From Helicobacteraceae bacterium (GTDB lineage Bacteria > Campylobacterota > Campylobacteria > Campylobacterales > Sulfurimonadaceae): DNA of 64,000 bases. This document shows, piece by piece, positions 16,854 through 34,418 of this stretch. The stretch spans positions 186,001 through 250,000 of the forward strand of contig JALWGC010000014.1 of the NCBI GenBank assembly GCA_027038835.1, written 5' to 3'. The stretch's first letter is position 1. Each line of letters starts with the position of its first letter. The position numbers were made by a program, and so were the translations under genes. Under the pieces are notes generated by a model that saw only the letters and a program-made list of their open reading frames with translations, was not told the DNA's origin and did not search any database.

Positions 16854-18362
16854 TTAGTAGCCGCTGTTGTAAACAAAACCACCTATAGCTTGCAATAGCG
16901 GATCTACCGCGATAAAAGCAAATATAGTTCCCACCGCGGCGATTCCGATGATAGTTTTCAAAGAAAGTGAAAGGTTGCTTCCTATCACTTTTTCGTATCT
17001 TGAATCTACCGGGTCTTTCATGAACATATAAACGATGAGTTTAAGATAGTAATACCCTGCGATCGCCGAGTTGAGTGCCATGATAAGCGCCAATACCGTA
17101 TAACCTGACGTTACCGCAGCACTTATAAGATACATTTTACCCCAAAAAAGCGCAAACGGCGGCACACCTGCAAGGCTGAGCATAAACAACGCCATGATGG
17201 TTGCTGCCATCGGCGAAGACTGCACAAGACCGGCGAACTTCTCGTATGAGTGATCGCTATTTTGCCCCGGGAGCATCTTTTTCTGTCTTGAAATCCAAAG
17301 CATGGAGAACGAACCAAGGTTAGTAAATGTGAAAAGAACCCAGTAAAGCAATAGCGCCGTGTTGGCTTGTGTCGTACCTATCATAACAGCCGCCATAGCG
17401 AATCCCGCATGACTGATGGAGCTGTATGCAAGCATCCTTTTGACATCGGTTTGTACCAAAGCCCACAAGTTCGCAGCCGTCATCGTCACGACGACAAATA
17501 CATAAAGAATCGCTTCTACCCAAACGAGACCGCTATGGATTAGGAACTCGAAAAAGCGCATCGCAACGATAAACGCCGCGATTTTAGGAACGATAGACAT
17601 ATAACCCGCCATCGCCGCACTTGAGCCTTCATAAACGTCAGGTGCCCAAGTATGAAACGGAACGAGGGAAAGTTTGAACGCGAAAGACGCGAGAATGAAC
17701 GCGAATCCAACCATCACGAAACCGATATCGCTAAATCCGTTGGCTACAAGAACGGTCGCTATTTGGTTGATTTCCACAGAACCGGTAACGGCATAGAAAA
17801 TCATCGAACCGAAACTGTAAAAACCTGCCGCCAAAGCACCCATAGTGAAGTATTTCACAGCCGCTTCGAAAGATTTTTCGCGGTTGTGCATAGCGATAAG
17901 CGTATATAGCGAAAGTGAAGCGGTCTCGAGCCCGACAAAAATCAAAATCAAGTTATCGGTCGCGACCATAAACTGGAACCCAGCGATCATGAACAAGAAA
18001 AGCGCGAAAAACTCCGGATAACTGAACTCATGAAAGCGCTTCGAGGTTAGTGCGAGCGGTATGAAAAGCATCGACGCGACAACGATGATAAACTGCGAAA
18101 CGATGGCCAAACCGTCAACGAGCATCACATCGAAAAGCCCAAGCAACGTTCCGTTTTGCATAAAAGCGCTCGAACTACCCGCTAGCGCCATGAAATCTGT
18201 AAAGAGGAACAAAATGCTCAGCATTACATATAAAGATTTGTCAATGTTGGACTTGAACAAATCGACTACCAAGATAAGCAAAGCACCCACGATCGGAATG
18301 AGCATCGGGGCGAGAGTCATCAGATTGAGCGACTCTAGGCTGACATTTACCGGCTCTAACAT
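16854..18362 (-). CDS. nuoN: Complex I subunit NuoN
   Basis: Antiporter-like membrane subunit of the proton-pumping respiratory complex, 502 residues with about 14 helices. Family motifs include the Glu/Lys channel residues in [19 protein letters not shown] and the broken helix region [19 protein letters not shown], plus [17 protein letters not shown]. Its start overlaps the nuoM stop by one base (TAATG). It is the last true complex I gene before pflA. Confidence 0.97.
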
Positions 18363-19915
18363 TATTTTGCCTCCTTTACTTCAGCCGCGCGGGCGAGTTT
18401 TATCGCTTTGACGTCTGCTATTTTCTTTTTGTACTCAGGGTTTTGCGCTTTTTCATGCATCAATTCCACTACAGACTCCACGCTACTGTTTATCGGTCCA
18501 AGTACCGGTTTAGGGTACACACCGAGCCAAACGGTGATAATAGCGAGCGGAATGAGTGCCAAAAGCTCTCTTTTGTTCAAATCAGGCAAGTTTTCGTTCT
18601 CTTTTTTCGTAACTTTTCCAAAGAACGCTTTTTTGAATGCCGCCAACATATAGATAGCCCCAACGATTATCGCCGTACCGGCGACAAGAGTGAGAATGTG
18701 CGACTGCTGATAGAATCCAAGGAAGCTGAGGAACTCACCCACAAAGTTGATCGTAAGCGGCAATCCTACCGATGCCATGAGCATAATACCGAAAATGAGC
18801 GCATAACGCGGCATAACATCTGCCAAACCGCCGAACTCGCTCATAAGCTTCGTATGGCGACGCTCATAGATAACACCTACAAGAAGGAAGAGCGCACCCG
18901 AAACGACACCGTGACCTATCATCAAGAAGATAGAACCGCTGATTCCTTCCACGTTAAGTGCGAACGTACCGAGGATGATAACCCCCATGTGAGAGATGGA
19001 GCTGTAAGCGACAACTTGCTTGATATCCTCTTGAGCGTATGCCACCATTGCGGTATAGATAATCATAATAATCGCCAAGAACGCGATCGGCACCATAAAA
19101 AACACGCTGGCATCCGGGAAAAGCGGCAAAGAGAAACGGATAAACGCATACGTACCCATTTTCAAAAGAATCGCCGCAAGGATCACCGAACCGATAGTAG
19201 GCGCTTGACCGTGAGCGTATGGCAACCAAGTATGAAACGGAAACATCGGTACTTTGATCGCAAAACCGAGGAAAAACGCCAAGAAAAGCCAAATTTGGTA
19301 ACTCTCCGGTAGTACGAGTCTGTACCAATCAAGTAAAGAGAAGCTCCATTTTCCGGTAACTTGATAGTAGAAATACGCCATAAATAGCATACCTACAAGC
19401 ATCACAAGCGAACCTGCGAACGTATAAAGGAAAAACTTCACCGATGCGTAGATACGTAGCGGACCACCCCAAGCACCGATGATATAAAGCATAGGTACAA
19501 GAGAGAGCTCCCAAAAAACGTAAAACGCGATAGCATCGAGTGCAGCGAAAACTCCAACCATCGTCATCTGAAGGAACAGGAGTGTAACTATCATGTTTTT
19601 TTCGTTCTTTGTCTCAGGCAAAGACGCAATACCTATCATCGTAAAGAAAGCTGCCAATATGATGATAAAGAGCGATATACCGTCAACACCGACAATGTAA
19701 TTGATACCGAACGAAGGCACAAGCGGTAGTGTCTCCATAAACTGCATACCCGATACGCTTGGATCGTATCCAAGCCACAACACGAGCGAGAGTGCGAACT
19801 CGACAACCGCAACGGTGATTCCGTACGCTCTAATCCCCTCAGGCTTGACGACAAAACCAAGCATCCCGGCTACTGCCGGGAAAAATATGAGTATCGATAA
19901 AATATGATCCAACAT
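18362..19915 (-). CDS. nuoM: Complex I subunit NuoM
   Basis: Antiporter-like proton channel subunit, 517 residues. The key Glu lies in [20 protein letters not shown], and the lysine-bearing helices and [19 protein letters not shown] are present, followed by [19 protein letters not shown]. The C-terminal tail is Lys/Glu rich ([12 protein letters not shown] and beyond), a small extension after the last helix. It is three bases downstream of nuoL. Confidence 0.97.
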
Positions 19916-19918
19916 CTA

Positions 19919-21841
19919 TTACACTCCTAAACCTGCGAGGAATTGAGACAATTCCGCAGAATATCTAGCTGCAAGCCCGACAGCTACAGCGATCATTAGT
20001 AAAACAACAAGACCGACTACCATCCAGCGAAGCATGGTAGAGAGGTTTCCACTTTGCATACCTCTTGTTGCCGAACCGGTAGAGTAAAGCACTTTGGCGA
20101 TACCGTCCACGGTTGCATCGACAACTTTGAGATCGACTTTTTTCCAGAATATACTTGAGAGTTCTCTGTACGGTTTTACGAAATACTCATCGTAGAAATA
20201 TGGAATGTAGTACTGATTGTATAGCAATTTATACAAGAAACTTTGTTCCGTCTCGCTTGTGCCGTCTGGAACTTTGATCCCTTTGCGAGCGTATTTTTTG
20301 TACGCATAGAAAATGGAAGCGAGCACGAACGCTTGCGTACCGATTATCATTATCCACAACGTAACGTGAGAGTGGATATGATAATGCACTGCATTGAGCG
20401 CTTCTTCGACAAGTTCGAAGAACGTATGCTGGAACGCACCTGCAATGATTGCAAGAATCAAAAGCGGACTCATAGCCCAAAGCATAAATTTGTATGCTTC
20501 ATGCGGATGGATACCAAAAAGTGTGTATCTATCTTCACCGTGGAAAATAAGCGCGACAAGACGGAAAGAGTAAAACGCCGTCAAACCTGCCGTAACCAAA
20601 AGCACGGTATAGATGATGTAGTGATGCTCGACGAATCCAACTTCCAAAATCGCGTCTTTGGAGTAAAAACCGGCAAGCGGGAACACACCGGCAAGCGCGA
20701 AAGAAGCGATTGTCATCATAATCCAAGTCCACTTCATCTTCTCTTTCAAAGCACCCATTTTAAACGGATCGAGCTCGTCATGCATAGCGTGCATCACGTT
20801 ACCCGCACCGAGGAAGAGAAGCGCTTTGAAAAACGCGTGCGCCATAAGGTGGAACAGCGCTACCCAATATGCTCCAAGACCGGCTGCAGCGAACATATAT
20901 CCAAGTTGCGAAAGGGTCGAATACGCGATAATACGTTTCATATCGCGGTTTACAAGCGCCATAGAGGCTGCGAAAATGGCAACGAACGCACCAAGACTCG
21001 CTATGAACAGACCGACATTTGGAATGAGGTCGTAAAGCGGATGGGAGCGGATTACCAAGTAAACACCCGCAGTAACCATCGTCGCCGCGTGGATAAGTGC
21101 CGAAACAGGTGTAGGACCTTCCATCGCATCCGCAAGCCAAGTATGAAGCGGGAATTGAGCCGACTTACCCATAGCACCGATAAAGAGGAAAATACCGATC
21201 CAAACGAGAGTCGCATGATCGAGTCCCGGGAACGCTGCGAATGCTTCTTCGTACTGAAGGGTTCCCGTATTCCAGTAAACGAGGAAAAGTCCGATAAGCA
21301 TTCCAAGGTCGGCGATACGGTTCATAATGAACGCTTCGTTGGCTGCCCAAGTCGCACTTTCTTTGTTGTACCAAAAACCGATAAGCCCCCAAGAACAAAG
21401 ACCGACACCTTCCCAACCGATAAAGAGTCCCGCATAGTTGTCGCTCATAACAAGCACCATCATCGAGAACACGAACGCAGAAAGCCATGCGAAGAATCGG
21501 TTGAAACTCTTATCGTGATCCATATAACCGTTTGAGTAAATATGAACTACGGTTGAAACGAGCGTTACGACCATCATCATAACCACACTCACTTCATCGA
21601 CGACAAAACCAAACGGAATGTTCAATCCACCTGTTGCCATCCATGTCATCAGCGTCACATGAATCGGTTCACCGCCGTTTAAGATGTGTACAAGCAGTAC
21701 CGTACTACTTGCAAAAGCGGTAAATATAAGCAAACTCGCAATCACACCTACAAACTGCTTTTTCTTCTGCGCAGTGAAGAGTGCGGAGAACAAAGAGCTT
21801 ACAAGTGGAGCGAAAAGCGCGATGTATAAATATTTTTCCAT
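19919..21841 (-). CDS. nuoL: Complex I subunit NuoL
   Basis: The distal antiporter-like subunit, 640 residues. Conserved parts include LFIGWEGVGLCSWGLIGFWY, AQFPLHTWLADAMEGPTPVS and MKRIIAYSTLSQLGYMFAA. The C-terminal section (about 540-640) fits the long lateral helix that lies along the membrane arm, and the chain ends with a last membrane helix near 608-628. It lies four bases after nuoK. Confidence 0.97.
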   Translation of the reverse strand: MEKYLYIALFAPLVSSLFSALFTAQKKKQFVGVIASLLIFTAFASSTVLLVHILNGGEPIHVTLMTWMATGGLNIPFGFVVDEVSVVMMMVVTLVSTVVHIYSNGYMDHDKSFNRFFAWLSAFVFSMMVLVMSDNYAGLFIGWEGVGLCSWGLIGFWYNKESATWAANEAFIMNRIADLGMLIGLFLVYWNTGTLQYEEAFAAFPGLDHATLVWIGIFLFIGAMGKSAQFPLHTWLADAMEGPTPVSALIHAATMVTAGVYLVIRSHPLYDLIPNVGLFIASLGAFVAIFAASMALVNRDMKRIIAYSTLSQLGYMFAAAGLGAYWVALFHLMAHAFFKALLFLGAGNVMHAMHDELDPFKMGALKEKMKWTWIMMTIASFALAGVFPLAGFYSKDAILEVGFVEHHYIIYTVLLVTAGLTAFYSFRLVALIFHGEDRYTLFGIHPHEAYKFMLWAMSPLLILAIIAGAFQHTFFELVEEALNAVHYHIHSHVTLWIMIIGTQAFVLASIFYAYKKYARKGIKVPDGTSETEQSFLYKLLYNQYYIPYFYDEYFVKPYRELSSIFWKKVDLKVVDATVDGIAKVLYSTGSATRGMQSGNLSTMLRWMVVGLVVLLMIAVAVGLAARYSAELSQFLAGLGV

Positions 21842-21845
21842 ATCC

Positions 21846-22151
21846 CTATCCTCTCATAACCGACATCTCATCGAGATCGATGCTATTGTGTCGTTTATAC
21901 CAAACTATAAGCAGTCCAAGTCCAACCGCAACCTCACTAGCGGCGATCGCGATAACGAAAAACGCGAACATCTGACCCGTCAAGTCAGCGTAGTAGTGTG
22001 AAATGGCGGCAAAGCCGATATTGACCGAATTGAGAAGAATCTCCGTTGCGAAAAAGAGCATCAAGAGGTTCTTTCTTCTCATAACACCATACAAGCCGAT
22101 CCCAAAAAGGATCGTTGCAAGCACCAAGTAATGATTCAAACCTATTTCCAT
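21846..22151 (-). CDS. nuoK: Complex I subunit NuoK
   Basis: Small membrane subunit of 101 residues with three helices. The buried acidic residues of the proton path sit in LLMLFFATEILLNSVNIGFA and VIAIAASEVAVGLGLLI. Its start shares one base with the nuoJ stop (TGATG), indicating coupled translation. Confidence 0.97.
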   Translation of the reverse strand: MEIGLNHYLVLATILFGIGLYGVMRRKNLLMLFFATEILLNSVNIGFAAISHYYADLTGQMFAFFVIAIAASEVAVGLGLLIVWYKRHNSIDLDEMSVMRG

Positions 22152-22714
22152 CAGACAAGCTCCTCCGCATTTTGTTTTTCGATCTCGCTCTCACTGAGTT
22201 TCGTAAGCGAGATATCCATCTTCTTCCCGGCAAGCACGATACCCGCTATCATCGCTACAAGCAACATAACCGCGGCAACTTCGAACGGTACGAGATATTT
22301 CGTAAAGAGCACCACACCGATTTGTTGTGTGTTACCCACACTCTCGACACTTGGATAAAGTGCAACGATATTTTGTGAAACGATAGGCGCTGCAACGATA
22401 GCTACGGTCAAAACAGCTGCCAACACGGCCAAAGTGGTAACGATCGCTTTATTGGGTTTTTTCTCTTTGACCTCTCTTGTCGTATCGAAGAACATCATAC
22501 CAAATGCATAAAGTGCAAGCACCGCACCCGAATAGACGATAATCTGAATCGCACCGAGAAAATCGGCACCAAGCGTGAAATAAAATCCCGAAATCAGAAT
22601 CATCCCAGCAGCCAATGCCGTAAGTGCATAAAGCGCTTGGCTGGTAGTGACGGCTACCCAAAACGACGCGATCACCAAAAACGAAAACAGATAAAAAGAT
22701 ATCGCTTCAAACAT
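22151..22714 (-). CDS. nuoJ: Complex I subunit NuoJ
   Basis: Membrane subunit of 187 residues with five predicted helices. The conserved third helix reads QIIVYSGAVLALYAFGMMFF. The C-terminus is hydrophilic and acidic (KLSESEIEKQNAEELV). NuoJ takes part in coupling quinone reduction to pumping. It lies 10 bases after nuoI. Confidence 0.95.
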   Translation of the reverse strand: MFEAISFYLFSFLVIASFWVAVTTSQALYALTALAAGMILISGFYFTLGADFLGAIQIIVYSGAVLALYAFGMMFFDTTREVKEKKPNKAIVTTLAVLAAVLTVAIVAAPIVSQNIVALYPSVESVGNTQQIGVVLFTKYLVPFEVAAVMLLVAMIAGIVLAGKKMDISLTKLSESEIEKQNAEELV

Positions 22715-22724
22715 TCCCTACTCC

Positions 22725-23342
22725 TTAATACGCAAGCGGCGTTTTCTTCAGCCGCTCGTCTTCGTGAGGCGTGATCGCACCAAAGCCTTGGAACTCACGC
22801 TGTTTCTTGTTGAGCACATCGTCTATCGGTGTGAGCATATCTTCATACAAAATGAAGTGCTCACGCTGCTCACTCGCGTTTTCGTACTCTCCACCATGGG
22901 TAATCGCAAGTTCGGGACAAACCTCCGCGCAGTAACCGCAGTAAATACAGCGACCGAGATTTATGCTGTACTCGCCCACCTCTTTACGCTGATTTTCATC
23001 GTAGCGTGTCTCGATTCTGATACATTTAGAGATACAAATCTTCTCACAAAGGCCACATCCGATACATCGCTCCGTTCCACTTTCCCACAGACGCTTCATT
23101 TCATGTACGGCTCTGTATCTCGGACCGATTGGAAGTTTTTCTTCCGGATACTGAACCGTATGGATGTCGAACTTGATCATTTCACGCAAAACAACCCATA
23201 GACCGACGAACAATTCACCTTTGAGTGAACGCTTCACGACCCTTTTGAACTTCTCCCATGGAGTTGTCGGATAATCCTCTATATCGAGAAAGAAGTAATC
23301 TTCACTGATATTTCTGTCTTTAAACATTTCCTGCTTACTCAT
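22725..23342 (-). CDS. nuoI: Complex I iron-sulfur subunit NuoI
   Basis: Carries clusters N6a and N6b toward the quinone site. Its 205 residues contain two ferredoxin motifs, CIGCGLCEKICISKC and CIYCGYCAEVCPELA, with all eight cysteines. An N-terminal amphipathic stretch (FKRVVKRSLKGELFVGLWVV) fits the membrane contact. The C-terminal extension of about 55 residues after the second motif is normal for this phylum. Confidence 0.97.
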   Translation of the reverse strand: MSKQEMFKDRNISEDYFFLDIEDYPTTPWEKFKRVVKRSLKGELFVGLWVVLREMIKFDIHTVQYPEEKLPIGPRYRAVHEMKRLWESGTERCIGCGLCEKICISKCIRIETRYDENQRKEVGEYSINLGRCIYCGYCAEVCPELAITHGGEYENASEQREHFILYEDMLTPIDDVLNKKQREFQGFGAITPHEDERLKKTPLAY

Positions 23343-23352
23343 CGTTGCTCCT

Positions 23353-24333
23353 CTACATCATCACTATGCCGGTGATGACTACGTTGATAACCGCCAAAGG
23401 CATAAGAACTTTCCAACACAACCACATCAACTGGTCAGGTCGTACATCCGGCCAAGCCGCTCTTGTCCAAAGGAAGAAGAAGAAGAAAAACGCCATCTTT
23501 CCAAAGAACAACAATCCATCTACGAACGTTCCTTCACCGAAACCGCCAAGGAAAATAAGCGGAATCACAAAAGAGATGAAGAACATATTCGCATACTCAC
23601 CGATGAAGAAAAGACCCCATCGCATACCCGAATACTCCGTACCGAAACCGTCGATAATTTCGTGATCGTTGGCGACAAGGTGAAATGGTGTACGTCCGGT
23701 TTCGGCAAAAGCGGCTATCCAAAAGAGGATAAACGCAAGCGGTTGGTACATAACGATCCAGCCATTTTCAATCTGCCAGTTGTTGAAGTCTATCAACGAC
23801 AACGAACCGACCATCATAACCGGTGCGAGGATAGAAAGCCCGGTAACTACCTCGTAGGAGATAAACACCGCCGCACTACGCGCTGCGGAGATGATAGACC
23901 ATTTGTTCGCCGAAGCCATACCCCCAAGAAGCGGACCGTAAAGTCCGACACCCATAACACCGAAAATATAAAGAAGCCCCACGTTGATGTCGGAGACTAT
24001 AGGCTTGACTTCGTAACCGCCGATTGTGAAACTCGGCATAAACGGAATCGCCGCAGCAGCCATGAACGCCGTAGCGGCAGTGATAACCGGCGCTATTTTG
24101 AAAATAGGCTTGACCACGTTTGCCGGGATGATATCTTCTTTCGTAAAAAGTTTGATACCATCAGCCGCGATTTGCAAAAGACCGTACGGTCCGACATACA
24201 TAGGTCCAAGACGTCTTTGCATAAACGCAAGAACTTTACGCTCGAAGTATGTACCGAATCCTGCAAGTGCAGAAAACACCAAGAGGATTATAACGATTTT
24301 AACGACTGTCGCTATCAAATATGCTACATCCAT
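23353..24333 (-). CDS. nuoH: Complex I subunit NuoH
   Basis: Membrane subunit lining the quinone tunnel, 326 residues and about eight helices. Conserved stretches include FGTYFERKVLAFMQRRLGPM, GLLQIAADGIKLFTKED, and the acidic loop AETGRTPFHLVANDHEIIDG. The run of nine Phe (MAFFFFFFLW region) in a late helix is unusual only in composition. Confidence 0.97.
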   Translation of the reverse strand: MDVAYLIATVVKIVIILLVFSALAGFGTYFERKVLAFMQRRLGPMYVGPYGLLQIAADGIKLFTKEDIIPANVVKPIFKIAPVITAATAFMAAAAIPFMPSFTIGGYEVKPIVSDINVGLLYIFGVMGVGLYGPLLGGMASANKWSIISAARSAAVFISYEVVTGLSILAPVMMVGSLSLIDFNNWQIENGWIVMYQPLAFILFWIAAFAETGRTPFHLVANDHEIIDGFGTEYSGMRWGLFFIGEYANMFFISFVIPLIFLGGFGEGTFVDGLLFFGKMAFFFFFFLWTRAAWPDVRPDQLMWLCWKVLMPLAVINVVITGIVMM

Positions 24334-24336
24334 ATC

Positions 24337-26823
24337 TTACACCTTTTCTACCGAAGCTATACTGAAGCGGTAACCGCTAAAGAGCGCAACGGAATTGAGA
24401 TTTTTATCAAATGTCGGCAAGAGGAAGATATCCCCTGCAATCTTGTTGTCGCAAACGACGACCGTCTCGAGTTCACCCTGTGGAGTTTTGACCTTGACGC
24501 TGTCCCCTTCTTGGAGATCGCTTTTTTCAAGATACTCTTCGCTCACATACAAACCGCTCTTTTCATCGAGGTTCGTCGTTTTGTGAGTGAACGGCGTGAA
24601 CTGTCTTACCGGGTTGGCAAGATAGATAAGTTGTCCTTCTAATTTTTCATCGGTTATCGGCTCGACACTTTCATCACCCGATGTCGCGACCGTAACGTTT
24701 TCAAGCACATAACCGCGAACTTCCGTTCCGTCGTTTTCCCAATGGTTCGGCAAGTTGTCGAACTCTTCTTCTTTGAACCCTTTTTCCACCGGAAGCTCTT
24801 TTGTGTAATCGACCGTGAGCTCTTTTTCAAGCCCAAGAGCACATGCGATGTCGTTCAGCTCGTAACCTCTGTATGGAACCGCTTGGTTTGTCGGGTTGAC
24901 ACGCTTGTTTATGCTTGTAAGCGTTCCTTCTTGCTGGTTGATAGCAGGCATATCCAAATCACCATCACCAAGCGCGCTTAGAGTAAAGTCGGCCTCTACG
25001 TTGTAACCGATAGTGAACTCCCCTCTTTGCTCATCGAGCTCGTTTATAAGCGCTACACCGAGCGTATTGGTAAGCGGTGGCGTGATAACGAGCTTGAATT
25101 TCGAGTATTTTTCCATCAAAGCTACAAGGCGTGCTAGGTTTTTGCTTCTTGGATGGGTGTAGAAATCCGGCCCTACCATCAAAGCGAAGTTCTCTTTTTT
25201 CTTGAGGAATTTTTCCAAAGTCTCGTCGAACTTCGCAGGAACACCGACGATATCGTAAAGTGCGTTCTTATCGACTTCGACCTCTTTTTCCACCGTTTCG
25301 TTCACGGTTTTGGTTTGTTCTTCTTCTACCTCTTCTTCTTCGCCGGTCTCTTCGTTGACTTTTGTCACCTTCACGGTTTCGGTAACTTTTTTCTTCACCA
25401 CTTCTTTGACAGTAATCGTCTCTTTGGAGTGGAAAGATGCAAGATAATCCACGATATCGCTTGGAAGCTGCTCTTTGTCGGCGAATAGATCGAGCAACAA
25501 GTACATAACCGCTTCTTCTTTTAGCGGTTCATGGTAGATTGTCGCAATATTTTTCCCAAGCCCTTCGATAACAGGGTCTTTTACAGGGTGGAAATAAAGC
25601 CCCGCGCCTTTGTTCATCTTCATAGAGTTGTTAAGCGCATAACGGGCGTTTGGATTGTCGCTTTTGATAGCCATTCCGACCGAGACGACGAAGTCGCAGT
25701 GGTGCACCTCTTCAAGGTCGCTTCCCCAGAGCATCTTCCCTGCAACTTCGGAGTAGTTTTTCATAAACTCTTGGAAAGTTTTAGCTTCTTTGTTTACAAG
25801 CTTGTAGCCGAATTTCTCTTTGAGACGCTGGAGAATCAACGCTTCTTCGTTCGTTATCGTCGAAGTGAATTCGATAGTATCGGCTTTTTTGAACGCTTCT
25901 ACCGCTTTTGCAAACGCCGCTTCGTCTTTGCCTTCTACTTTGTTTTGGTAGTCAAAACCGTATCTACCGGCTCCACAAAGCGAAACGTAGTTCCATTCGT
26001 TCGTTACACGGTAGATTTTCGGCTCGTTGCTCTCGATAGATGTGTGTTTGACGTCGTAGTAGATTTGACAACCTGCACTACAGTGTCCGCAAGTTGCAGG
26101 AATCTGCTCACACTCCCAAGCGTTTGTCGTGTAGATATAGTGGGTATCTACCAATGCACCGACAGGACAAACGGCCGCACACTCGCCACACTTGGTACAA
26201 TCGAGCATCTCACCGCCGCTGGTAAGCCCGATAAGCGATTTGTTGAGTTTGTTCCACATCGCATACGCATCTTTTGGCATACTCTCTTTGAACTCGCTAT
26301 CGATTGCGTCCGCACCTCTTGGAACGGTTTTGAGCGACGTATCGCCTATCATGTCCTTACAAGCCGTTACACAACGCTCACACACTATACAAAGACCCGG
26401 ATCGTAATGCAGATGACCCCAATCTTTCGCTTCTCTTTTAACGTCTTTGATCGCATAATGCTGCGCATCTACACCCATTTCAAGTGTGTAGTTCTGCAGT
26501 TCACATTCGCCGCTTTGATCGCACACGCCGCATTGCAACGGGTGGTTCACATCGTAAACCTCCATAATTGCGCGGCGCTCTTTTTCGATATTTTCGGTGC
26601 TTGTCGTTATCTGCATACCGTCTTTGGCTTTTGCGTTACATGCGTACACCTGCTTTCCGTCTGCTTCTACAAGGCAGATACGGCAAGCGAGTGTCGGACT
26701 ACAACGGGTCAGATAACAGATAGCAGGGATAAAAATATCGTTCGCACGAGCGGCGTTGAGAACATATTCACCGGCTTGGGTTTGTATCTCTTTGCCATCG
26801 ATCGTTATCGTAATCTTACTCAT
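24337..26823 (-). CDS. nuoG: Complex I subunit NuoG, second copy
   Basis: This 828-residue paralogue overlaps the first nuoG by four bases. Cluster ligands visible are C36, C47, C50, C62 (2Fe-2S); H94, C98, C101, C107; two full ferredoxin motifs at C145-C155 and C209-C219; and an N7-type set starting C245, C248, C252. Canonical NuoG has only one four-iron cluster built from the two ferredoxin-like stretches; here both have four cysteines. The molybdopterin-like fold follows. A highly charged insertion near residues 462-515, with repeated VTETVKVT, EETGEEEEVEEE and VNETVEKEVEVD, is absent from the first copy. Both copies together probably form the electron path from the GltD-like protein to NuoI. 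Confidence 0.93.
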   Translation of the reverse strand: MSKITITIDGKEIQTQAGEYVLNAARANDIFIPAICYLTRCSPTLACRICLVEADGKQVYACNAKAKDGMQITTSTENIEKERRAIMEVYDVNHPLQCGVCDQSGECELQNYTLEMGVDAQHYAIKDVKREAKDWGHLHYDPGLCIVCERCVTACKDMIGDTSLKTVPRGADAIDSEFKESMPKDAYAMWNKLNKSLIGLTSGGEMLDCTKCGECAAVCPVGALVDTHYIYTTNAWECEQIPATCGHCSAGCQIYYDVKHTSIESNEPKIYRVTNEWNYVSLCGAGRYGFDYQNKVEGKDEAAFAKAVEAFKKADTIEFTSTITNEEALILQRLKEKFGYKLVNKEAKTFQEFMKNYSEVAGKMLWGSDLEEVHHCDFVVSVGMAIKSDNPNARYALNNSMKMNKGAGLYFHPVKDPVIEGLGKNIATIYHEPLKEEAVMYLLLDLFADKEQLPSDIVDYLASFHSKETITVKEVVKKKVTETVKVTKVNEETGEEEEVEEEQTKTVNETVEKEVEVDKNALYDIVGVPAKFDETLEKFLKKKENFALMVGPDFYTHPRSKNLARLVALMEKYSKFKLVITPPLTNTLGVALINELDEQRGEFTIGYNVEADFTLSALGDGDLDMPAINQQEGTLTSINKRVNPTNQAVPYRGYELNDIACALGLEKELTVDYTKELPVEKGFKEEEFDNLPNHWENDGTEVRGYVLENVTVATSGDESVEPITDEKLEGQLIYLANPVRQFTPFTHKTTNLDEKSGLYVSEEYLEKSDLQEGDSVKVKTPQGELETVVVCDNKIAGDIFLLPTFDKNLNSVALFSGYRFSIASVEKV

Positions 26824-29063
26824 GACTGCACTCTTTCTATTTTGGATTTTTCGAATCTGTATCGATTAGGTTTCATCTCTACATCGAACGTCGGATTGAT
26901 CGCTACGGTACCTTTGAGATCTTCATCGAGTTCGAACACACGCTCTATCTTCATATCTCCAAGATCGAGCACGATTTTCTCTCCGTTTTCGATTTTCGCC
27001 GCGATCGCGAACTGTTTCGAACCTCTAAGGGTATTCTCTTTTGGAAGCTGTGCCGTTTTTGCCGTATAGGCGTTGAACTGCAATACCGGATCGGCGTGGT
27101 AAACCACAACACCGTTGAATTCCGGAAGCTCCTCGACCTCTTCTATGCTGAAGTTTACAGAAACATCGCTATTTTTTAGCTTATATCCGCGAATATCTTC
27201 CCCTAAACGTCCCAAGAAGTTCTCTAAAGTATCAAATTCCACATCGGCAAACGCTTCGTTCGCTCTGCCGAGCTCTTTGGTGTAGTCGATCGTGTATCGT
27301 TTCTCGATACCCAAAAGGTTGGCTATATCGTTGAGGCACACACCATCAAACGCTAATGCTACGTTTGTCGGAAGAACACGTTTATCGATGCTCGTAACGG
27401 TTCCTTCTTGCTGGTTGAGTGCAGGAACGACTAAGTTCGCACTCTCATCGAAACTCGAAATCGTATAATCCCCCTTGGTGTTGTACCCTACGATATATCC
27501 ATCTTCAACCGGTTCGTCGAGCTCGCACAAAAGCGAAACTCCAAGAGTATTGACCTCTTTTGGAACTATCAGAACTTTATAATCGCTATAACGCTGGATA
27601 AAACCTAAAAGTTTGGCTATATTCTTCGCTCTTGGATGCGCGAACAAATCGGCACCGGCAATGAGGGTCTTGTTTTTCGCACGCTTGAAGAAAACGCTCA
27701 TTTGTGCGAACTCCTCTTCGCCGACATTGCTTTCTGCCTCGAGATATCCTTCATCGAGCGATTCGAAATACTCTTGAAGCTCTTTTGGCAGTTTCGAATC
27801 TTTTAACAACTCTTTTGCCATAAGTGCCGCGACACCCTCTTCGGTACCCGCTTCCATTTTGACAAACTGCGTTACGACGTTTTGGAGCAATGCATCTTCG
27901 ATTGGATGGAAATAACTCACCTTCGCCCCGTTTTGTTTGCTTGCAGTCGTTATCGCGTAGCGCACACCCGGGTTGTCGGTAGCTATTTGCGTACCGAACA
28001 CGATAATGGCATCGCTTTTCTTGACCTCTTCCAAATCGGCTTCGTACAATCTTTTCCCCGAAGCCGAAGCGAAACTCTCCATGAAGTTCTTGAACAATCT
28101 CGCATCTTCGTTCACAAGCTTGAGACCCAGCTTTTCTTTGATTTTTTGTAGTATCAGCGCCTCTTCGTTCGTGATGATGGAGCTAAACTCTATGGCATCC
28201 GCTTTTTGAAGCGCATCGACCGCTTTTTGCGCTATCTTTTGATGTGGCAAAGCTTTTGCATCGAAATCAAAACCAAACCGTCCCGCACCACAAAGGTTGG
28301 AAAACTCGAAATTGTTCTTGACACGATATATCTTCTGGTCACCATCGATTCCGCTGTGGCGCACTTCGTACTCGAGCGGACATCCCGCACTACAGTGTGC
28401 GCACGTTGCCGGAATACGCTTGAGCTCCCAAGCGTTCGCGGAGTATTTGAAGTTGCTTGAGACCAGTGCTCCAACCGGGCAAACCGCTATACACTCTCCA
28501 CAGAACGTACAATCGAGCGTATCGGCATCTTTTGGAACGATAGTCGATTTGTATCCACCCACTTTAATCTCTATGGCATCGTCACCTATCACTTCGTTAC
28601 ATACATGAACACATTTTTCACATAAAATACAAAGTGAAGGGTCATAATCTATGAGATTCCAGTGCTTGACCTCTCTAAACTGGTCTTTCGCGCTGAAACT
28701 TTGTCTGGCGATTCCAAACTCAAGCGTTTTGTTTTGCAAATCACATTCGCCCGATTTGTCGCACACACCACATTCAAGAGGGTGGTTGACATCGTAGAGC
28801 TTCATGATGTTGGTTCGCTCTTCCTCCAGTTTTTGGGAATTGGTCGTAACGTTGATCCCCTCGGTTGGAGGCGTGTTACAACTAAGAACGAATCCGTCCA
28901 CTCCTTCGACTTCCACACTACAGATTCGGCAACTCGCACACGGATTCGTCTTCGAGATGTAGCACATAGTCGGGATGTAAATACCGTAGCGTCTAGCTAC
29001 TTCTAAAATCGTTTCCCCTTTTTGCGCTTCGACCGGGATGTTGTCTATTGTAAATTTCACCAT
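26820..29063 (-). CDS. nuoG: Complex I subunit NuoG, first copy
   Basis: The protein is 747 residues. The 2Fe-2S site uses C34, C45, C48 and C62; the His-Cys cluster H94, C98, C101, C107; two ferredoxin motifs C145-C155 and C185-C195; and the N7-type site C221, C224, C228, C258. The rest resembles the degenerate molybdopterin-oxidoreductase fold of NuoG with no catalytic site expected. It is similar over most of its length to the second copy, for example the shared stretches around NEEALILQ and LNQQEGT, so a duplication is likely. It lies 10 bases after the GltD-like gene, the presumed electron donor. Confidence 0.93.
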   Translation of the reverse strand: MVKFTIDNIPVEAQKGETILEVARRYGIYIPTMCYISKTNPCASCRICSVEVEGVDGFVLSCNTPPTEGINVTTNSQKLEEERTNIMKLYDVNHPLECGVCDKSGECDLQNKTLEFGIARQSFSAKDQFREVKHWNLIDYDPSLCILCEKCVHVCNEVIGDDAIEIKVGGYKSTIVPKDADTLDCTFCGECIAVCPVGALVSSNFKYSANAWELKRIPATCAHCSAGCPLEYEVRHSGIDGDQKIYRVKNNFEFSNLCGAGRFGFDFDAKALPHQKIAQKAVDALQKADAIEFSSIITNEEALILQKIKEKLGLKLVNEDARLFKNFMESFASASGKRLYEADLEEVKKSDAIIVFGTQIATDNPGVRYAITTASKQNGAKVSYFHPIEDALLQNVVTQFVKMEAGTEEGVAALMAKELLKDSKLPKELQEYFESLDEGYLEAESNVGEEEFAQMSVFFKRAKNKTLIAGADLFAHPRAKNIAKLLGFIQRYSDYKVLIVPKEVNTLGVSLLCELDEPVEDGYIVGYNTKGDYTISSFDESANLVVPALNQQEGTVTSIDKRVLPTNVALAFDGVCLNDIANLLGIEKRYTIDYTKELGRANEAFADVEFDTLENFLGRLGEDIRGYKLKNSDVSVNFSIEEVEELPEFNGVVVYHADPVLQFNAYTAKTAQLPKENTLRGSKQFAIAAKIENGEKIVLDLGDMKIERVFELDEDLKGTVAINPTFDVEMKPNRYRFEKSKIERVQS

Positions 29064-29073
29064 TGCACCCCTC

Positions 29074-31107
29074 CTATGTCGCTACCATCGCGATGTAGTA
29101 ACAGCGCATACAGCGCTCCGCTTCACTGATAGCCTCTTCTTGCGTGAACCCGAGATTCACTTCGCGGTTGTTGTCTTTTCGCTCATCCACTTCAAGCTTT
29201 TCACTCACTTGGCGCGGCAGACCCGGAAGCCATCCGGTAACTTTTTCGTTCTTGTCGTAAACGCGAAGTTTTCTCAAGTGGTCTTCCATAATCTCTTCGT
29301 CGGTCAAAGTGATTTCACCCGTTTGCACGTAGCGTGATATGACCGAAGCGGCACGTTTTGCCTGACCCACCGCGTTGACGATGGTCATAGGACCGTACTC
29401 GCAGTCCCCCGCAGCGAAGATTCCTTTGCGCGAAGTCATGTAATCACGCCCGTCCGTCTTAAGCGTATTCCAAGAGGTCATCTCCAGTTCCCACTCCTCA
29501 GGCAAAAAGTCGAAATCGGCACTTTGACTCACCGCCGGAATGAGGTAATCACACTCTATCTCGTAGTCCGCACCCTCAATCTTGACAAGCTGCGGTCTGC
29601 CGCCGTCGGGGTCGGGAACGAGTTCGAACTTGTTAATAACGAGTTTTTTCAACACATCGTCTTCATCGACGATTTTACCAACGGCTGAATGGAACAAGAA
29701 CTCCACACCCTCTTCGACCGCTTCGTGGTACTCTTCGTAGGTGGTATTGCGGATGATCGTCTTTTCGTCCCGACGGTAAATCATGTATACTTTTTTCGCA
29801 CCCGCTCTGACCGAACAGCGAACGACGTCCATAGAGGTAAAACCACCACCGACACACACGACCGTTTTCCCGGTCAAATCGACATGGTCCGTTGGAAGCA
29901 TCTGTTTTTCTTGTACCTCTTTTGGGGTTTTGATGCCGTATTTTTCATACAGATTCACCCAGTCGAGAAAATCGATAGCTCCCCAGTACCCTTTGATCTC
30001 TTCACGTTCGTTCTCGCAGCGGACTTTTTTCGAAAGTCTTGTCCCCGAAGCGACAAGTACCGCGTCGTACTCCTGCTCGAATCTTCTCATATCGTCGGCG
30101 GTCACTTTATGGTTGAGAATGAAATTCACCCCCATATCTTTGACGCACTCTATATCTTTGTTGTACTTCTCAATAGGCATACGGTATTCGGGAACTCCAA
30201 CGGCAACCTCCCCTCCAAGAACAGGAAGCGCTTCATAGACATCGACATCGATCCCTTCCGCGGCAAGATAGTACGCACCGGTCAATCCCGCAGGTCCAGC
30301 TCCGATAATAGCTACTCTTTTGCCGATGCTTGGCTTTTTCTCCATCGGGTGCAAGAAGCCGAGATTGTGGTCGGTTTCGTAGTCGGCTCCAAGGCGTTTG
30401 AGTTCCATAATAGAAATCGGCTCATCGAGGTTAGTTCTACGACACGCATCCTCACAAGGGTGTGGACATACCCGCCCACAAGTGTGCGCAAGCGGCATGG
30501 TCTGGCGCGTCGCTTCGAGCGAATCGTCAAAACGAAGGTCTCGAACTCCTTCGATATACCCCGGAATATCGACATGACTTGGACACGCATCCATACATGG
30601 AGCGGTAATTTTGGCTATGTAACTTGTGTCGCCGTTATAATGTTTCGATGGCTTTTTCTCGTTGATACAGGTCAAAAACTCCTCTTCGAAGTGGGTCATA
30701 AGATCCAAAATAGGGTTTGGAACCGTTTTTCCGATCTCACATTTGGAGGTGACTTGCATGCTCGAACCGATCTCTTTGAGGTGTTCGAAGTCGCTCATCT
30801 CCCCTTCACCTCGCGCGATCTTGTCAAGCATGTCAAAGAGGATTCTTCCTCCCCATCTACCCGGTGCACAGCGCCCGCACGCTTCGCTGTACTCTTGGTA
30901 CGTCGCGGCGTATTCGGCAGCTAGTTTGATAACATCGACATCCTCGTCAAAAAGTGCGACGCCGTCCCACCCTATGAACGCCTTGGAGTCTCGATGCTCG
31001 TCGTACTGCGCAGGTAGATTGTAAGCCGACTCTTCCCACTCCTCTTGCGGCTTGCCTATATTGTTGATGCGCTCACCGTTCCAAGTGGAAAAATATACTT
31101 TACTCAC
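29074..31107 (-). CDS. NuoF-tail / GltD-like flavoprotein, electron input of complex I
   Basis: The 677-residue protein occupies the nuoF position but lacks the FMN and NADH-binding fold of NuoF. Residues about 60-150 match only the C-terminal helical bundle of NuoF that holds cluster N3: C77, C80 and C123 are kept, while the third cysteine of CGxCxPC is Gly83. Residues 160-670 form a GltD/dihydropyrimidine-dehydrogenase-like module: cysteines 171, 175, 210, 214, 218 and 222 for two iron-sulfur clusters, an FAD site GAGPAGLTGAYYLAAEG (269 onward) and a second nucleotide site GGGFTSMD (420 onward) with YRR (about 444-446), which suggests NADPH. Electrons probably pass from NADPH or ferredoxin, or in reverse. 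The domain reading is from sequence; the donor is inference. Confidence 0.8.
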   Translation of the reverse strand: MSKVYFSTWNGERINNIGKPQEEWEESAYNLPAQYDEHRDSKAFIGWDGVALFDEDVDVIKLAAEYAATYQEYSEACGRCAPGRWGGRILFDMLDKIARGEGEMSDFEHLKEIGSSMQVTSKCEIGKTVPNPILDLMTHFEEEFLTCINEKKPSKHYNGDTSYIAKITAPCMDACPSHVDIPGYIEGVRDLRFDDSLEATRQTMPLAHTCGRVCPHPCEDACRRTNLDEPISIMELKRLGADYETDHNLGFLHPMEKKPSIGKRVAIIGAGPAGLTGAYYLAAEGIDVDVYEALPVLGGEVAVGVPEYRMPIEKYNKDIECVKDMGVNFILNHKVTADDMRRFEQEYDAVLVASGTRLSKKVRCENEREEIKGYWGAIDFLDWVNLYEKYGIKTPKEVQEKQMLPTDHVDLTGKTVVCVGGGFTSMDVVRCSVRAGAKKVYMIYRRDEKTIIRNTTYEEYHEAVEEGVEFLFHSAVGKIVDEDDVLKKLVINKFELVPDPDGGRPQLVKIEGADYEIECDYLIPAVSQSADFDFLPEEWELEMTSWNTLKTDGRDYMTSRKGIFAAGDCEYGPMTIVNAVGQAKRAASVISRYVQTGEITLTDEEIMEDHLRKLRVYDKNEKVTGWLPGLPRQVSEKLEVDERKDNNREVNLGFTQEEAISEAERCMRCYYIAMVAT

Positions 31108-31116
31108 GACTGCTTC

Positions 31117-31347
31117 CTAATTATCTTTTTTGCAAACGATAGTCCAATCAACTTCGTTGAATTTTAGGGAGTTGTATAGCTCGTAGCCGCACTCCTTGAC
31201 TAAATCCGCGCTTCTTTGAATCGGAGAGAAATCACCGATTTCGAACAAAAAGATCGCAGTCTCACCTTTTGGATGCTCGCTCGTGAGGATCTCTTTCATT
31301 CTTGGTTCGAATCCATCTTTAAGATGACGTAGGTCGTAGCGTTTCAT
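31117..31347 (-). CDS. Short NuoE-position protein
   Basis: The protein is 76 residues. In C. jejuni an equally short protein stands at the nuoE position between nuoD and the nuoF-like gene. No 2Fe-2S cysteines of true NuoE are present; the only two cysteines are in VKECGYELY and TIVCKKDN. It may be a small adaptor that holds the GltD-like protein to the complex. The start shares one base with the end of nuoD. Confidence 0.7.
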   Translation of the reverse strand: MKRYDLRHLKDGFEPRMKEILTSEHPKGETAIFLFEIGDFSPIQRSADLVKECGYELYNSLKFNEVDWTIVCKKDN

Positions 31348-32588
31348 TATCTATCTACCTCCCCGAAAACGATATTGGTCGTACCGATAATCGAAACGAC
31401 GTCTGGAATGTAGTGCCCCGGCAACAAGTCGGTCAAGATTCCCGTATGCCAAAACGACGGTGCACGAAGCTTGAGTCTGTACGGATACGGTCCACCTTGA
31501 GAGTTGATGTAGTATCCAAGCTCCCCTTTAGGCGATTCGGTAGGTACGTAAACTTCCCCAACAGGCGGTCTCATCCCTTGCGTTACAAGCACGAAGTGCT
31601 GCATAAGCGAGTAGTTTTGCGTCATGATGTCAAGTTTTGGAGCGGAGATATACTTCGGTGCGTGCGCCATAAGCTCCGTCTCTCCATCACGCACACATTT
31701 TTCGTACATATCGATACACTGATACAGAATCTTCGCACTCTCTCTCATCTCTTCCATATAGATGCGATATCTTGCGAAGTTGTCCCCTTTGTCGCTCCAA
31801 GGAACTCTAAATTCCACTTCGTCGTAAAGCTCGTAGGGTTCTTCTTTTCGGATATCCCACGCAACACCGCTGGCACGAAGCATCGGACCGGTACACCCCC
31901 ATGAAAGCGCCATCTCTTTGGAGATATAACCGACCCCTTCCATTCTCATACGCCAGATTCTGTTTTCATCCAGAAGGTCTTCGTAGTCTTTGATATTTTG
32001 CGGAAGTTTGCCGAGGAAAGTTCGAAGTTGCTCCAAAAAGTCCGGCTGGATATCGAGCGGTACACCGCCTATACGGATAGCGGCATGTGTCAGTCTCGCA
32101 CCGCAGTACCCTTCCATGATATCCATCAAATACTCACGCTCTCTAAACGCATAGAGGAAAATCGTCATCGCTCCGATATCAAGCGCGGTTGTAGCCAACC
32201 AGAAAAGGTGGCTCATAAGGCGGTTGATCTCAAGGATCATCATTCTTATCACTTTTGCACGTCTTGGAACTTCAAGACCGATGAGCTTTTCGACCGCAAG
32301 CGCGAAACCGTAGTTGTTCGAACTCGAAGCGATATAGTCCATCCGATCGGTTGTCGGCATGAACTCGTTGTAGATCATATTCTCCGCCATCTTTTCCATA
32401 CCACGGTGCAAGTATCCGATATCCGGATGCGCTTTTACGATCTGCTCTTGTTGCAAGTGCAACATCAAACGGAGCTGACCGTGAGCTGATGGGTGTTGTG
32501 GACCGAAGTTGACGACAAGTTCGTTGTCTTCTCTCTCGTACGAAATGTTTTCGAAAAACGGTCTGAGTCTATTTGGTTGTTGTGCCAT
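31347..32588 (-). CDS. nuoD: Complex I subunit NuoD
   Basis: 49-kDa quinone-site subunit, 413 residues. The ATG at 32586-32588 is chosen because AGGTGG lies at proper distance; a GTG nine bases upstream would overlap that site. Conserved segments are [19 protein letters not shown] (quinone-site His), [11 protein letters not shown] and [16 protein letters not shown], with the C-terminal [14 protein letters not shown]. It is a separate gene from nuoC, unlike the fused form in E. coli. Confidence 0.97.
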
Positions 32589-32597
32589 ATTTACCAC

Positions 32598-33404
32598 CTA
32601 CCTTTGCGGATCATCAATCACGACTGATGATTCTTTTTTAAGTTTTTTGATGAGGAATACACCACCCTCTTCTTGGTACTCTTGCGGGTTGATCGGATCG
32701 TCGTCTTTGACTTCCGCGCCGCGAGGTACTTCATGTCCAAGTCGTGCGAAACGCTCGCTATCGTAACGATCGATTCGTGCGGTATCTCTGAGTTCCGGTC
32801 CGATGATATCGCGCGCTTCTTTTCCGTAGATTTTATCCACTTCGTACCACTGAGCGAACTCGTCCCCTTGAAGCGGATAGCTCTTTCGAAGCGGGAACCC
32901 TTGCCAATCGTACGGCATCAAGATACGTTTCATAAACGGATGGTTGTTCACTTTAACACCGAACATATCGTACATTTCACGCTCGCTCCAGTCGGCACTT
33001 CTAAAAAGCTTCTCCACCGACTCGATCGCTTGATCCTCTTTGATGTACATTTTCACGCGCACACGCTTACGTTTGTTCATCGAAAGAAGCTGATAGAATA
33101 TCTCGAACTCACCCCGCTTTGCGAGCCAGTCGATAGCGCTCAATTCGCTAAGTTGGTCGTATGAAAGTTCCTCTTTGAAAAACTTGATCACTTCGAAATT
33201 GTCTTCAGGGTTGATATATACGACCATCTGCTCCACTTGGATGTAAGCTTCAAGTATTTCGAACTTCTCTTTGAGTGCAGCCAAATCTTTGGCGAACACT
33301 TCGTCGGTTTCGACATCGTACTTCGGAACTTGCGGTGCAACCCAAAATCTGTCTGTATAATAAGGCTTTTTCTGAACGTCGTCTTTTGGTTTGTATGCTC
33401 TCAT
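32598..33404 (-). CDS. nuoC: Complex I subunit NuoC
   Basis: 30-kDa subunit of the hydrophilic arm, 268 residues from the ATG at 33402-33404, which overlaps the nuoB stop by one base (TAATG). The signature is SADWSEREMYDMFGVKVNNH, followed by RILMPYDWQGFPLRKSYPL. An extra acidic C-terminal part (about 205-268) follows the family domain, as is common in this phylum. Confidence 0.96.
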   Translation of the reverse strand: MRAYKPKDDVQKKPYYTDRFWVAPQVPKYDVETDEVFAKDLAALKEKFEILEAYIQVEQMVVYINPEDNFEVIKFFKEELSYDQLSELSAIDWLAKRGEFEIFYQLLSMNKRKRVRVKMYIKEDQAIESVEKLFRSADWSEREMYDMFGVKVNNHPFMKRILMPYDWQGFPLRKSYPLQGDEFAQWYEVDKIYGKEARDIIGPELRDTARIDRYDSERFARLGHEVPRGAEVKDDDPINPQEYQEEGGVFLIKKLKKESSVVIDDPQR

Positions 33405-33913
33405 TAGATCAACCTTTTTGGTTTTTGTGCTCTTCCGGCTTTCTGGGCACGGATCTTTTGTTGCAACAGCATAACGCCGTACTGGAGAGTTTCCGGGCGA
33501 GGGGCACATCCGGGAAGATACAAATCTACCGGAATGACTCTATCGACCCCTTGAACCGTCGCGTAGGTATTGAACATTCCGCCCGTGTTCGCACAACTTC
33601 CCATAGAGATAACCCATCTCGGCTCGGTCATCTGATCGTAAAGTCTTTTTATGAACTCGGCGTGTTTCTTCGTAAGCGTTCCTGCGACTATCATCACGTC
33701 CGATTGTCTCGGACTCGCTCTAAAGATAGTTCCAAAACGGTCGAAGTCGTAACGCGACGCACCGCTTGCCATCATCTCGATACCGCAACACGCCAAACCG
33801 TACGTCAGCGCCCACAAAGAGTTCGATCTACCCCAATTGACCACTTTGTCTATGGTCGTAAGCGCAACCGGCAAGCCGCCGTCTTGTGCATAGTTTACTT
33901 TATGTTGTGCCAT
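33404..33913 (-). CDS. nuoB: Complex I subunit NuoB
   Basis: Binds cluster N2 next to quinone, 169 residues. The start at 33911-33913 follows AAAAAAGGAG; an upstream in-frame extension lies inside nuoA. The tandem cysteines are in [15 protein letters not shown], the third in MGSCANTGG and the fourth in [10 protein letters not shown]. It overlaps nuoA by 19 bases. Confidence 0.97.
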
Positions 33914-34284
33914 TCTAACGCTCCTTTTTTCCATGCATATACGAAACCGATCGCAAGCAAAATAATAAATAGAATCATCTCGGTAAATCCGAACCAACCA
34001 AGCACTTTGAAGTCAACCGCCCATGGGAACATGAAAACGATCTCGACGTCAAAGAGCAAAAACAAAAGCGCAAACAGATAAAACTGCGGCGAGAGTCTGT
34101 TTGGTTGCTTCGTTACCTCGGGACCACACTCGTAAACGGAGAGTTTGATCTTTTCGGTATCTTTCGCCGCCAAAGCGCGACTCGCCAACCTTGCGATAAT
34201 AGTCGTCGCGGTAAACGCGCCGAACGTCAAAACAAACAGTACAAACACACCGAAGTATGGATTTGCCGTAATTATGTGTTCCAT
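33895..34284 (-). CDS. nuoA: Complex I subunit NuoA
   Basis: First gene of the operon, 129 residues with three membrane helices and the loop [20 protein letters not shown] that changes shape during turnover. The ATG at 34282-34284 has TAAGGCGG upstream; the longer reading would add a charged tail before the first helix and is not likely. Confidence 0.96.
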
Positions 34285-34353
34285 GTAAATCCGCCTTAGA
34301 TTTTTACTCGCCCCGCCAATAGCGAAACGGTAATGTTTTACAACACTTTCAGA

Positions 34354-34386
34354 CGGAAAAAACCCGTTATTTTTTCGTTTTTTCCG
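34354..34386. repeat. Perfect inverted repeat in the nuo leader
   Basis: Ten-base arms CGGAAAAAAC and GTTTTTTCCG separated by 13 bases, about 70 bases upstream of nuoA. In RNA it would form a stable hairpin in the nuo leader; as DNA it could be a regulator site. It lacks a trailing T run on the minus strand, so it is not a typical terminator. Confidence 0.6.
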
Positions 34387-34418
34387 GTCCGAGAATGTCA
34401 CAAAAAACAGTTACTTGC

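Follow-up and report, generated by a model that had tools for sequence, protein, structure and literature searches.

Tandem NuoG paralogues next to a GltD-type protein in Campylobacterota: a conserved complex I variant, probably a single complex with a longer electron wire

Canonical 14-subunit complex I (Thermus, E. coli) has a real NuoE and NuoF and one NuoG, which carries N1b, N4 and N5 (and N7) and has four, not eight, ferredoxin-type cysteines. In the flavodoxin-type complex I of C. jejuni and H. pylori (Cj1566c-Cj1579c), the genes run in the order nuoA-D, a 76-aa NuoE-like gene, the NuoF slot, nuoG and nuoH-N. The order is the same in the operon described here, which additionally holds the protein that we call FX; the "NuoF" of C. 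jejuni and H. pylori (Cj1574c/HP1265 slot) is the short protein called R below.

The Geobacter NADPH dehydrogenase SfrAB is soluble, lies outside nuo operons and consists of two proteins, as do FX and its neighbor G1 by description; SfrA is NuoG/Fdh-like. SfrB is described as GltD-like, and SfrAB is listed together with NuoG-like enzymes (PMC7483475). The transhydrogenase StnABC/NfnABC (8oh5, 9bov) and NsoABC likewise join an NADPH-oxidizing GltD-like domain to a NuoG-like iron-sulfur protein, with GltD and NuoG parts fused in one chain (StnC/NsoC) that feeds a HydBC-type bifurcating module. StnC is reported to oxidize NADPH, pairing the GltD and NuoG-like parts in one enzyme (PMC10482914, PMC7483475), and its electron path is given as NADPH, FAD, GltD clusters, NuoG-type clusters and next subunit, with two clusters of the NuoG part lying off the path (PMC10482914). 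NUO-2 of Nitrospina and Kuenenia is, likewise, a complex I with extra iron-sulfur clusters in its input subunits and was proposed to serve reverse electron flow; the sections of PMC3578206 considered here give it one NuoG2 and a NuoF2 with an NADH-binding domain and without an FMN site, and describe no second tandem NuoG. Epsilonproteobacterial complex I was reported to use ferredoxin or flavodoxin, with no mention of two NuoG in the sections consulted (PMC4585668). In the open-licence papers searched, we found no description of a tandem NuoG or of Cj1574c/HP1265 as G1-derived.

In the window (the whole 64,000-nucleotide stretch of DNA analyzed), the minus strand carries a single nuo operon of the Campylobacterota kind with 15 genes, in the order nuoA-D, 76-aa NuoE-like gene, FX, G1, G2, nuoH-N. 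The two tandem NuoG genes of the original prediction were found as ORFs at 26820-29063 (G1, 747 aa) and 24337-26823 (G2, 828 aa), overlapping by 4 bases. Upstream lie nuoA (33895-34401; ORF and conserved order, the true start being probably further downstream as most homologues have ~129 aa), nuoB (33404-33997; placed by the order common to the loci compared), nuoC (32598-33509; PF00329) and nuoD (31347-32597; TIGR01962, 574 bits, above cut-off), the single NuoD match in the window's genome. They are followed by the NuoE-like gene, E' (31117-31347; ORF, PF16514 E 3e-38, PDB 2lxr E 8.5e-22), and FX (29074-31107, 677 aa). Downstream of G2 are nuoH (23353-24333; ORF and conserved order), nuoI (22725-23342; PRK05888, 336 bits, above its cut-off of 248) and nuoJ, K, L, M and N (16854-22714), ORFs of which J-L are kept after nuoI across loci and M and N were assigned by position and sequence. 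The operon's NuoE slot is occupied by the PF16514 protein, with no thioredoxin-like 2Fe-2S NuoE in the operon. A NuoF with the FMN/NADH domain of canonical 14-subunit NADH:quinone oxidoreductase is absent from the window's genome, where FX is the sole NuoF match and is confined to NuoF-model residues 292-408. Compared with the Campylobacter-type operon, in which the NuoE-like gene is combined with R in the NuoF slot, the window has full-length G1 and FX in place of R.

Gene order was read in 56 loci from a sample of 200 genomes of the phylum and in 24 further, selected (non-random) loci. Among the best 80 FX matches listed, all of them from Campylobacterota (Sulfurimonas, Sulfuricurvum, Sulfurovum, Nitratiruptor, Nitratifractor and Hydrogenimonas are represented), 57 loci had at least 5 kb of downstream sequence. 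The order FX-G1-G2-nuoH was present in 54 of these and, with G1 split into two ORFs, in two more; because this order recurs, the tandem NuoG is not a chance arrangement. With the start taken as the first possible codon, FX-G1 and G1-G2 spacings in 28 other loci ranged from -74 to +15 bases. The one remaining locus (L176) had a single NuoG between FX and nuoH (L176:3416-5686), whose C-terminal part also fits G2 well; either a collapsed assembly or genuine recombination could account for it.

The two NuoG copies

Against the Campylobacterota NuoG model (PRK08493/NF006305, cut-off 591), G1 scored 903 bits and G2 1185 bits, and against the general NuoG model (TIGR01973, cut-off 470) the two scored 229 and 196 bits, respectively, both below the cut-off. 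Each copy gave Fer2_4, NADH-G_4Fe-4S_3 and 4Fe-4S dicluster matches, and Pfam and motif analysis recovered in both the NuoG succession of N1b-type 2Fe-2S, N5 H-C-C-C and 4Fe-4S motifs followed by a molybdopterin-like domain. The ferredoxin-type cysteines are residues 145, 148, 151, 155 and 185, 188, 191, 195 in G1 and 145, 148, 151, 155 and 209, 212, 215, 219 in G2; N7-type ligands are at 221, 224, 228 and 258 in G1 and at 245, 248, 252 and 283 in G2. All 20 ligand positions were kept in 27 of 29 G1 sequences, which rules out G1 as a recent or decaying duplicate. Among 56 G2 sequences, the N1b and N5 ligands were kept in every one, each of the eight ferredoxin cysteines in at least 55 and the N7 ligands in 35. 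Thus, Pfam domains, ligand positions and conservation bear out the original prediction that both copies keep all iron-sulfur motifs, the eight ferredoxin-type cysteines included. The 21 G2 sequences that had lost N7 ligands (3 of 29 with FX, 18 of 27 without) retained the N1b, N5 and ferredoxin motifs.

The prediction also held that in canonical NuoG both motifs together supply one cluster. That is true of enterobacterial NuoG, including a Klebsiella plasmid copy with four ferredoxin-type cysteines (L244), and of the standard NuoG of some Campylobacterota (L216-L219), and fails for Aquifex and rhizobial NuoG and, by the account consulted, Nitrospina NuoG2 (PMC3578206). The eight-cysteine domain aligned with the Aquifex NuoG chain 7q5y_A and was found in two rhizobial plasmid NuoGs (L240, L241); judged by such comparisons, the domain itself is ordinary among NuoG.

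The copies are consistently distinct from each other. The linker between the two ferredoxin motifs measured 49-53 aa in 55 of 56 G2 sequences versus 26-29 aa in 27 of 29 G1 sequences, the remaining rows of either copy not fitting the pattern, and in the window G1 and G2 are 52% identical over the iron-sulfur part and 40% over the remainder. The structure predicted for G1 with AF2 (pLDDT 83.8, pTM 0.84) gave Foldseek matches to NuoG chains 4hea_3 and 7nz1_G and to formate dehydrogenases. Both copies are conserved in families f1, f4, f6, f7, f8, f9 and f11 and in parts of f2.

A phylogeny of the copies in the phylum, suggested as a check in the original prediction, was computed from the iron-sulfur domains; the nine outgroup rows comprised one formate dehydrogenase and NuoG from rhizobia, actinobacteria and Klebsiella as well as standard Campylobacterota NuoG. 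With respect to the outgroups used, G1 and G2 formed one clade (100/99) with G2 as a clade inside it (100/100), so that, within this limited outgroup sample, the duplication appears old in the phylum. G1 rows were scattered at the base of the joint clade and the order of events is therefore not fixed. By its model score, the gene orders and its clade, G2 is identified as the orthologue of the lone NuoG in Campylobacter/Helicobacter-type operons.

FX, full-length G1 and the short protein R

FX combines a NuoF N3 domain (PF10589, residues 63-145) with a GltD/NfnB-like module consisting of a two-4Fe-4S N-terminal domain followed by FAD and NAD(P)H domains (PF14691, PF07992). Its best solved relatives are NfnABC 9bov, NfnAB, StnC 8oh5 and GltS, the glutamate synthase small chain. 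In the N3 motif CGRC[AT]PG (FX residues 77-83, window 30859-30879), the third cysteine is replaced by glycine in all 29 FX sequences that hold the domain. With three of the four ligands, the domain could possibly carry a 3Fe-4S cluster or use a non-cysteine ligand, and the canonical N3 route is doubtful for the same reason. An N3-GltD protein of Collinsella retains CGKCTPC and adjoins an FeFe hydrogenase, so N3-GltD proteins are also found beside enzymes whose iron-sulfur domains are NuoG-like. All of 14 FX sequences share Y-R-R behind the second Rossmann motif, which we take to be as in NADPH-type GltD, and the motifs make NADP(H) the most likely substrate.

The original prediction made no mention of the 76-aa gene at 31117-31347, which its small size makes easy to overlook in ORF lists, or of the co-occurrence with FX. 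The 76-aa protein is a homologue of the FMN-binding HP1264 and probably the entry point for flavodoxin/ferredoxin. Its gene was present in all 28 FX-containing loci with nuoD and in all 27 nuo loci without FX. FX and this gene are hence no mutual alternatives, and the state without FX is no swap to another cassette; what separates the two states is FX together with the iron-sulfur half of G1 (residues 1-268 with N1b, N5, two 4Fe motifs and N7; window 28260-29063).

We followed this difference through the 200 genomes (completeness at least 90%; nine without a PRK08493 match). FX was found in 46, all of which had a G1-type ORF no shorter than 668 aa except for one ORF cut by a contig end (508 aa). 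None of the 46 had a separate short G1 relative, a 369-aa fragment in G198 aligning only where G2 does. A full-length G1 was seen in none of the 154 FX-less genomes. In a phylogeny of 61 genomes built from NuoB, D, H and I, FX changed at least six times on supported branches and full-length G1 switched with it in six of six independent pairs (sign test p 0.03). FX and ATP-citrate lyase, each present in 46 of the 200 genomes, occurred together in 37 and singly in 9 and 9, with 145 genomes having neither (Fisher p 3e-23); on the tree, a change in the same way was seen in 1.6 of 6 independent pairs, which gives the link no independent support and leaves the tie of FX to autotrophy unresolved by the tree.

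Most genomes without FX have R. Of the 154, 142 were matched by a profile (A2) made from short NuoF-slot proteins; for two of them the match fell on the single NuoG alone, which leaves 140 genomes with R. The ORF was seen for 139 (G171 matched, its ORF not being listed), with a length of 198-361 aa. R corresponds to the C-terminal half of G1 without the iron-sulfur domains: it aligned to G1 345-747 over 251 columns, lacking ~120 internal residues (hhalign E 9e-57, 36% identity), and the alignment to G2 was much weaker (E 2e-22). The NCBI NuoG model matched 20 of 24 R proteins; no credible Pfam family was found for R, and a sequence profile search of the PDB returned nothing credible. The predicted structure (pLDDT 89.9) has a reduced molybdopterin-oxidoreductase fold, with Z 23.9 to formate dehydrogenases (7vw6, 1aa6) and Foldseek matches to NuoG chains as well. 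A tree of the C-terminal part placed G1 and R in one clade apart from G2 (100/99), with the full-length G1 of four f2 genomes falling among f2 R proteins.

By alignment and tree, then, R is the C-terminal half of G1 stripped of its iron-sulfur domains, and it sits where the protein called NuoF is placed in Helicobacter and Campylobacter. In locus L087, R adjoins a NuoE-like protein that matches H. pylori 2lxr almost exactly across all 76 residues and is, because of this position, an HP1265-type protein, the type listed as NuoF in H. pylori (PMC3561388). A single origin of R was rejected (AU p 0.021; long branches call for caution), and the number of separate truncations is uncertain on account of those branches, two at most being defensible from these sequences.

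Candidate electron route and rival explanations

The tandem NuoG represents a complex I variant that is conserved and has an input module of the GltD type. We consider it probable that G1 and G2 are differentiated subunits of one complex I, in which G1 together with FX forms an added input module wired to G2. By analogy, FX-G1 is best read as an NADP(H) module of the Stn/Sfr kind that would be docked on a complex I of the flavodoxin type. The pair looks like a two-gene counterpart of StnC, differing from StnC/NsoC in that FX and G1 are separate genes, FX bears the N3 domain and the partner presumed here, a membrane complex I, already has a NuoG. The FAD enzyme FX would take electrons from NADP(H), or in reverse give them to NADP(H); from NADPH they would pass through the FAD and two 4Fe-4S clusters of FX to the clusters of G1, on to G2 (N1b, N4, N5), NuoI (N6a, N6b) and NuoB (N2), and finally to menaquinone. 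G2 would act as the ordinary NuoG handing electrons to NuoI, and the altered N3 domain of FX perhaps bridges G1 and G2, on which FX-G1 would be docked. Since the G1 clusters are kept only with FX and the G2 clusters in both states, FX, G1, G2, NuoI is the economical order; cluster order and direction of flow are put forward here as proposals, and free-living members may run the FX-G1 route in reverse.

FX and G1 might instead constitute a separate soluble NADPH dehydrogenase resembling SfrAB or Stn, leaving a complex I with G2 only that is fed by flavodoxin/ferredoxin as in Campylobacter. SfrAB and StnC do join GltD-like and NuoG-like parts in soluble enzymes (PMC7483475, as far as consulted), nuo operons without FX and the G1 iron-sulfur domains are common (27 of 56 loci) and R exists without this complex I. 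Against this stand the placement of FX-G1 within the operon, immediately preceding G2 in 56 of the 57 loci with enough downstream sequence among the best 80 FX matches listed, the NuoF N3 domain carried by FX and the persistence of R in the operon slot after FX loss. Moreover, the R copy of C. jejuni (Cj1574c) was reported, together with Cj1575c, to relay electrons from flavodoxin into complex I (Weerakoon and Olson 2008, via the review PMC4178425, consulted in part). We therefore regard a separate soluble enzyme as rather unlikely. A two-headed complex I, which we would call unlikely as well and offer tentatively, would have the FX-G1 NADP(H)-FAD head and a NuoE-like flavodoxin/ferredoxin-FMN head both feeding into G2; in autotrophs it would operate in reverse as a pmf-driven bifurcation of quinol electrons to NADP+ and to ferredoxin/flavodoxin for the reductive TCA cycle.

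The original prediction left a choice between a much longer electron wire and two alternative complexes. The longer wire is favored by the one tight operon, the single NuoD and the restriction of the G1 iron-sulfur half to genomes with FX. Two complexes in which G1 and G2 replace each other according to the donor, with the remaining subunits shared, would agree with the kept cluster ligands of both copies and with their descent as paralogues of one family; such an exchange is nevertheless quite improbable given that, among the best 80 FX matches listed, every locus with enough sequence apart from L176 has G2 alongside FX-G1, that the linkers have diverged and that the genome encodes one NuoD. 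The tandem position might also suggest that G1 is merely a redundant recent duplicate with no distinct role, an explanation that hardly deserves credence in view of the low identity between the copies, their conservation over the families named above and the full support for the G2 clade.

The locus offers a possible explanation for the long-standing missing NuoE/NuoF of Campylobacter and Helicobacter: their "NuoF" is a NuoG paralogue minus its iron-sulfur half, in a complex that in free-living relatives retains an input module of the NADP(H) type. Should FX-G1 be docked, the iron-sulfur chain would be unusually long for a complex I, and the natural gene-loss series would show which part of the wire is needed per input. 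The module would also be a candidate route for NADPH supply via reverse electron flow in chemolithoautotrophs of vents.

R outside the nuo operon

R was absent in seven genomes of one f2 genus, g18 (G034, G047, G050, G079, G147, G150, G197). All seven have a PRK08493 NuoG match, and the one that was opened (L111) has the operon without R, so that the C-terminal half of G1 would not be strictly needed in complex I. Conversely, a search of 44 genomes, with G000 and G101 among them as controls, gave 34 from several families that had R and no NuoD above cut-off. Twelve of these have a different complex I, with an ORF of NuoCD size just below the cut-off, and in 22 the NuoD matches are weak (read as hydrogenase-like) or lacking. 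R outlives this complex I in these 34 genomes and so serves some function beyond complex I, as perhaps does the C-terminal half of G1.

In the window, nuoN is followed by a gene for a 788-aa protein (14469-16835, minus strand) that is tetratricopeptide-like by eye. R adjoined a homologue of this gene in 8 of 19 loci from such genomes (L192-L204, L206-L211), which looks as if the nuo operon had been deleted around R. The R of one f5 genome (L210:6863-7630) is immediately followed downstream by an ORF that resembles, by eye, a NiFe-hydrogenase large subunit.
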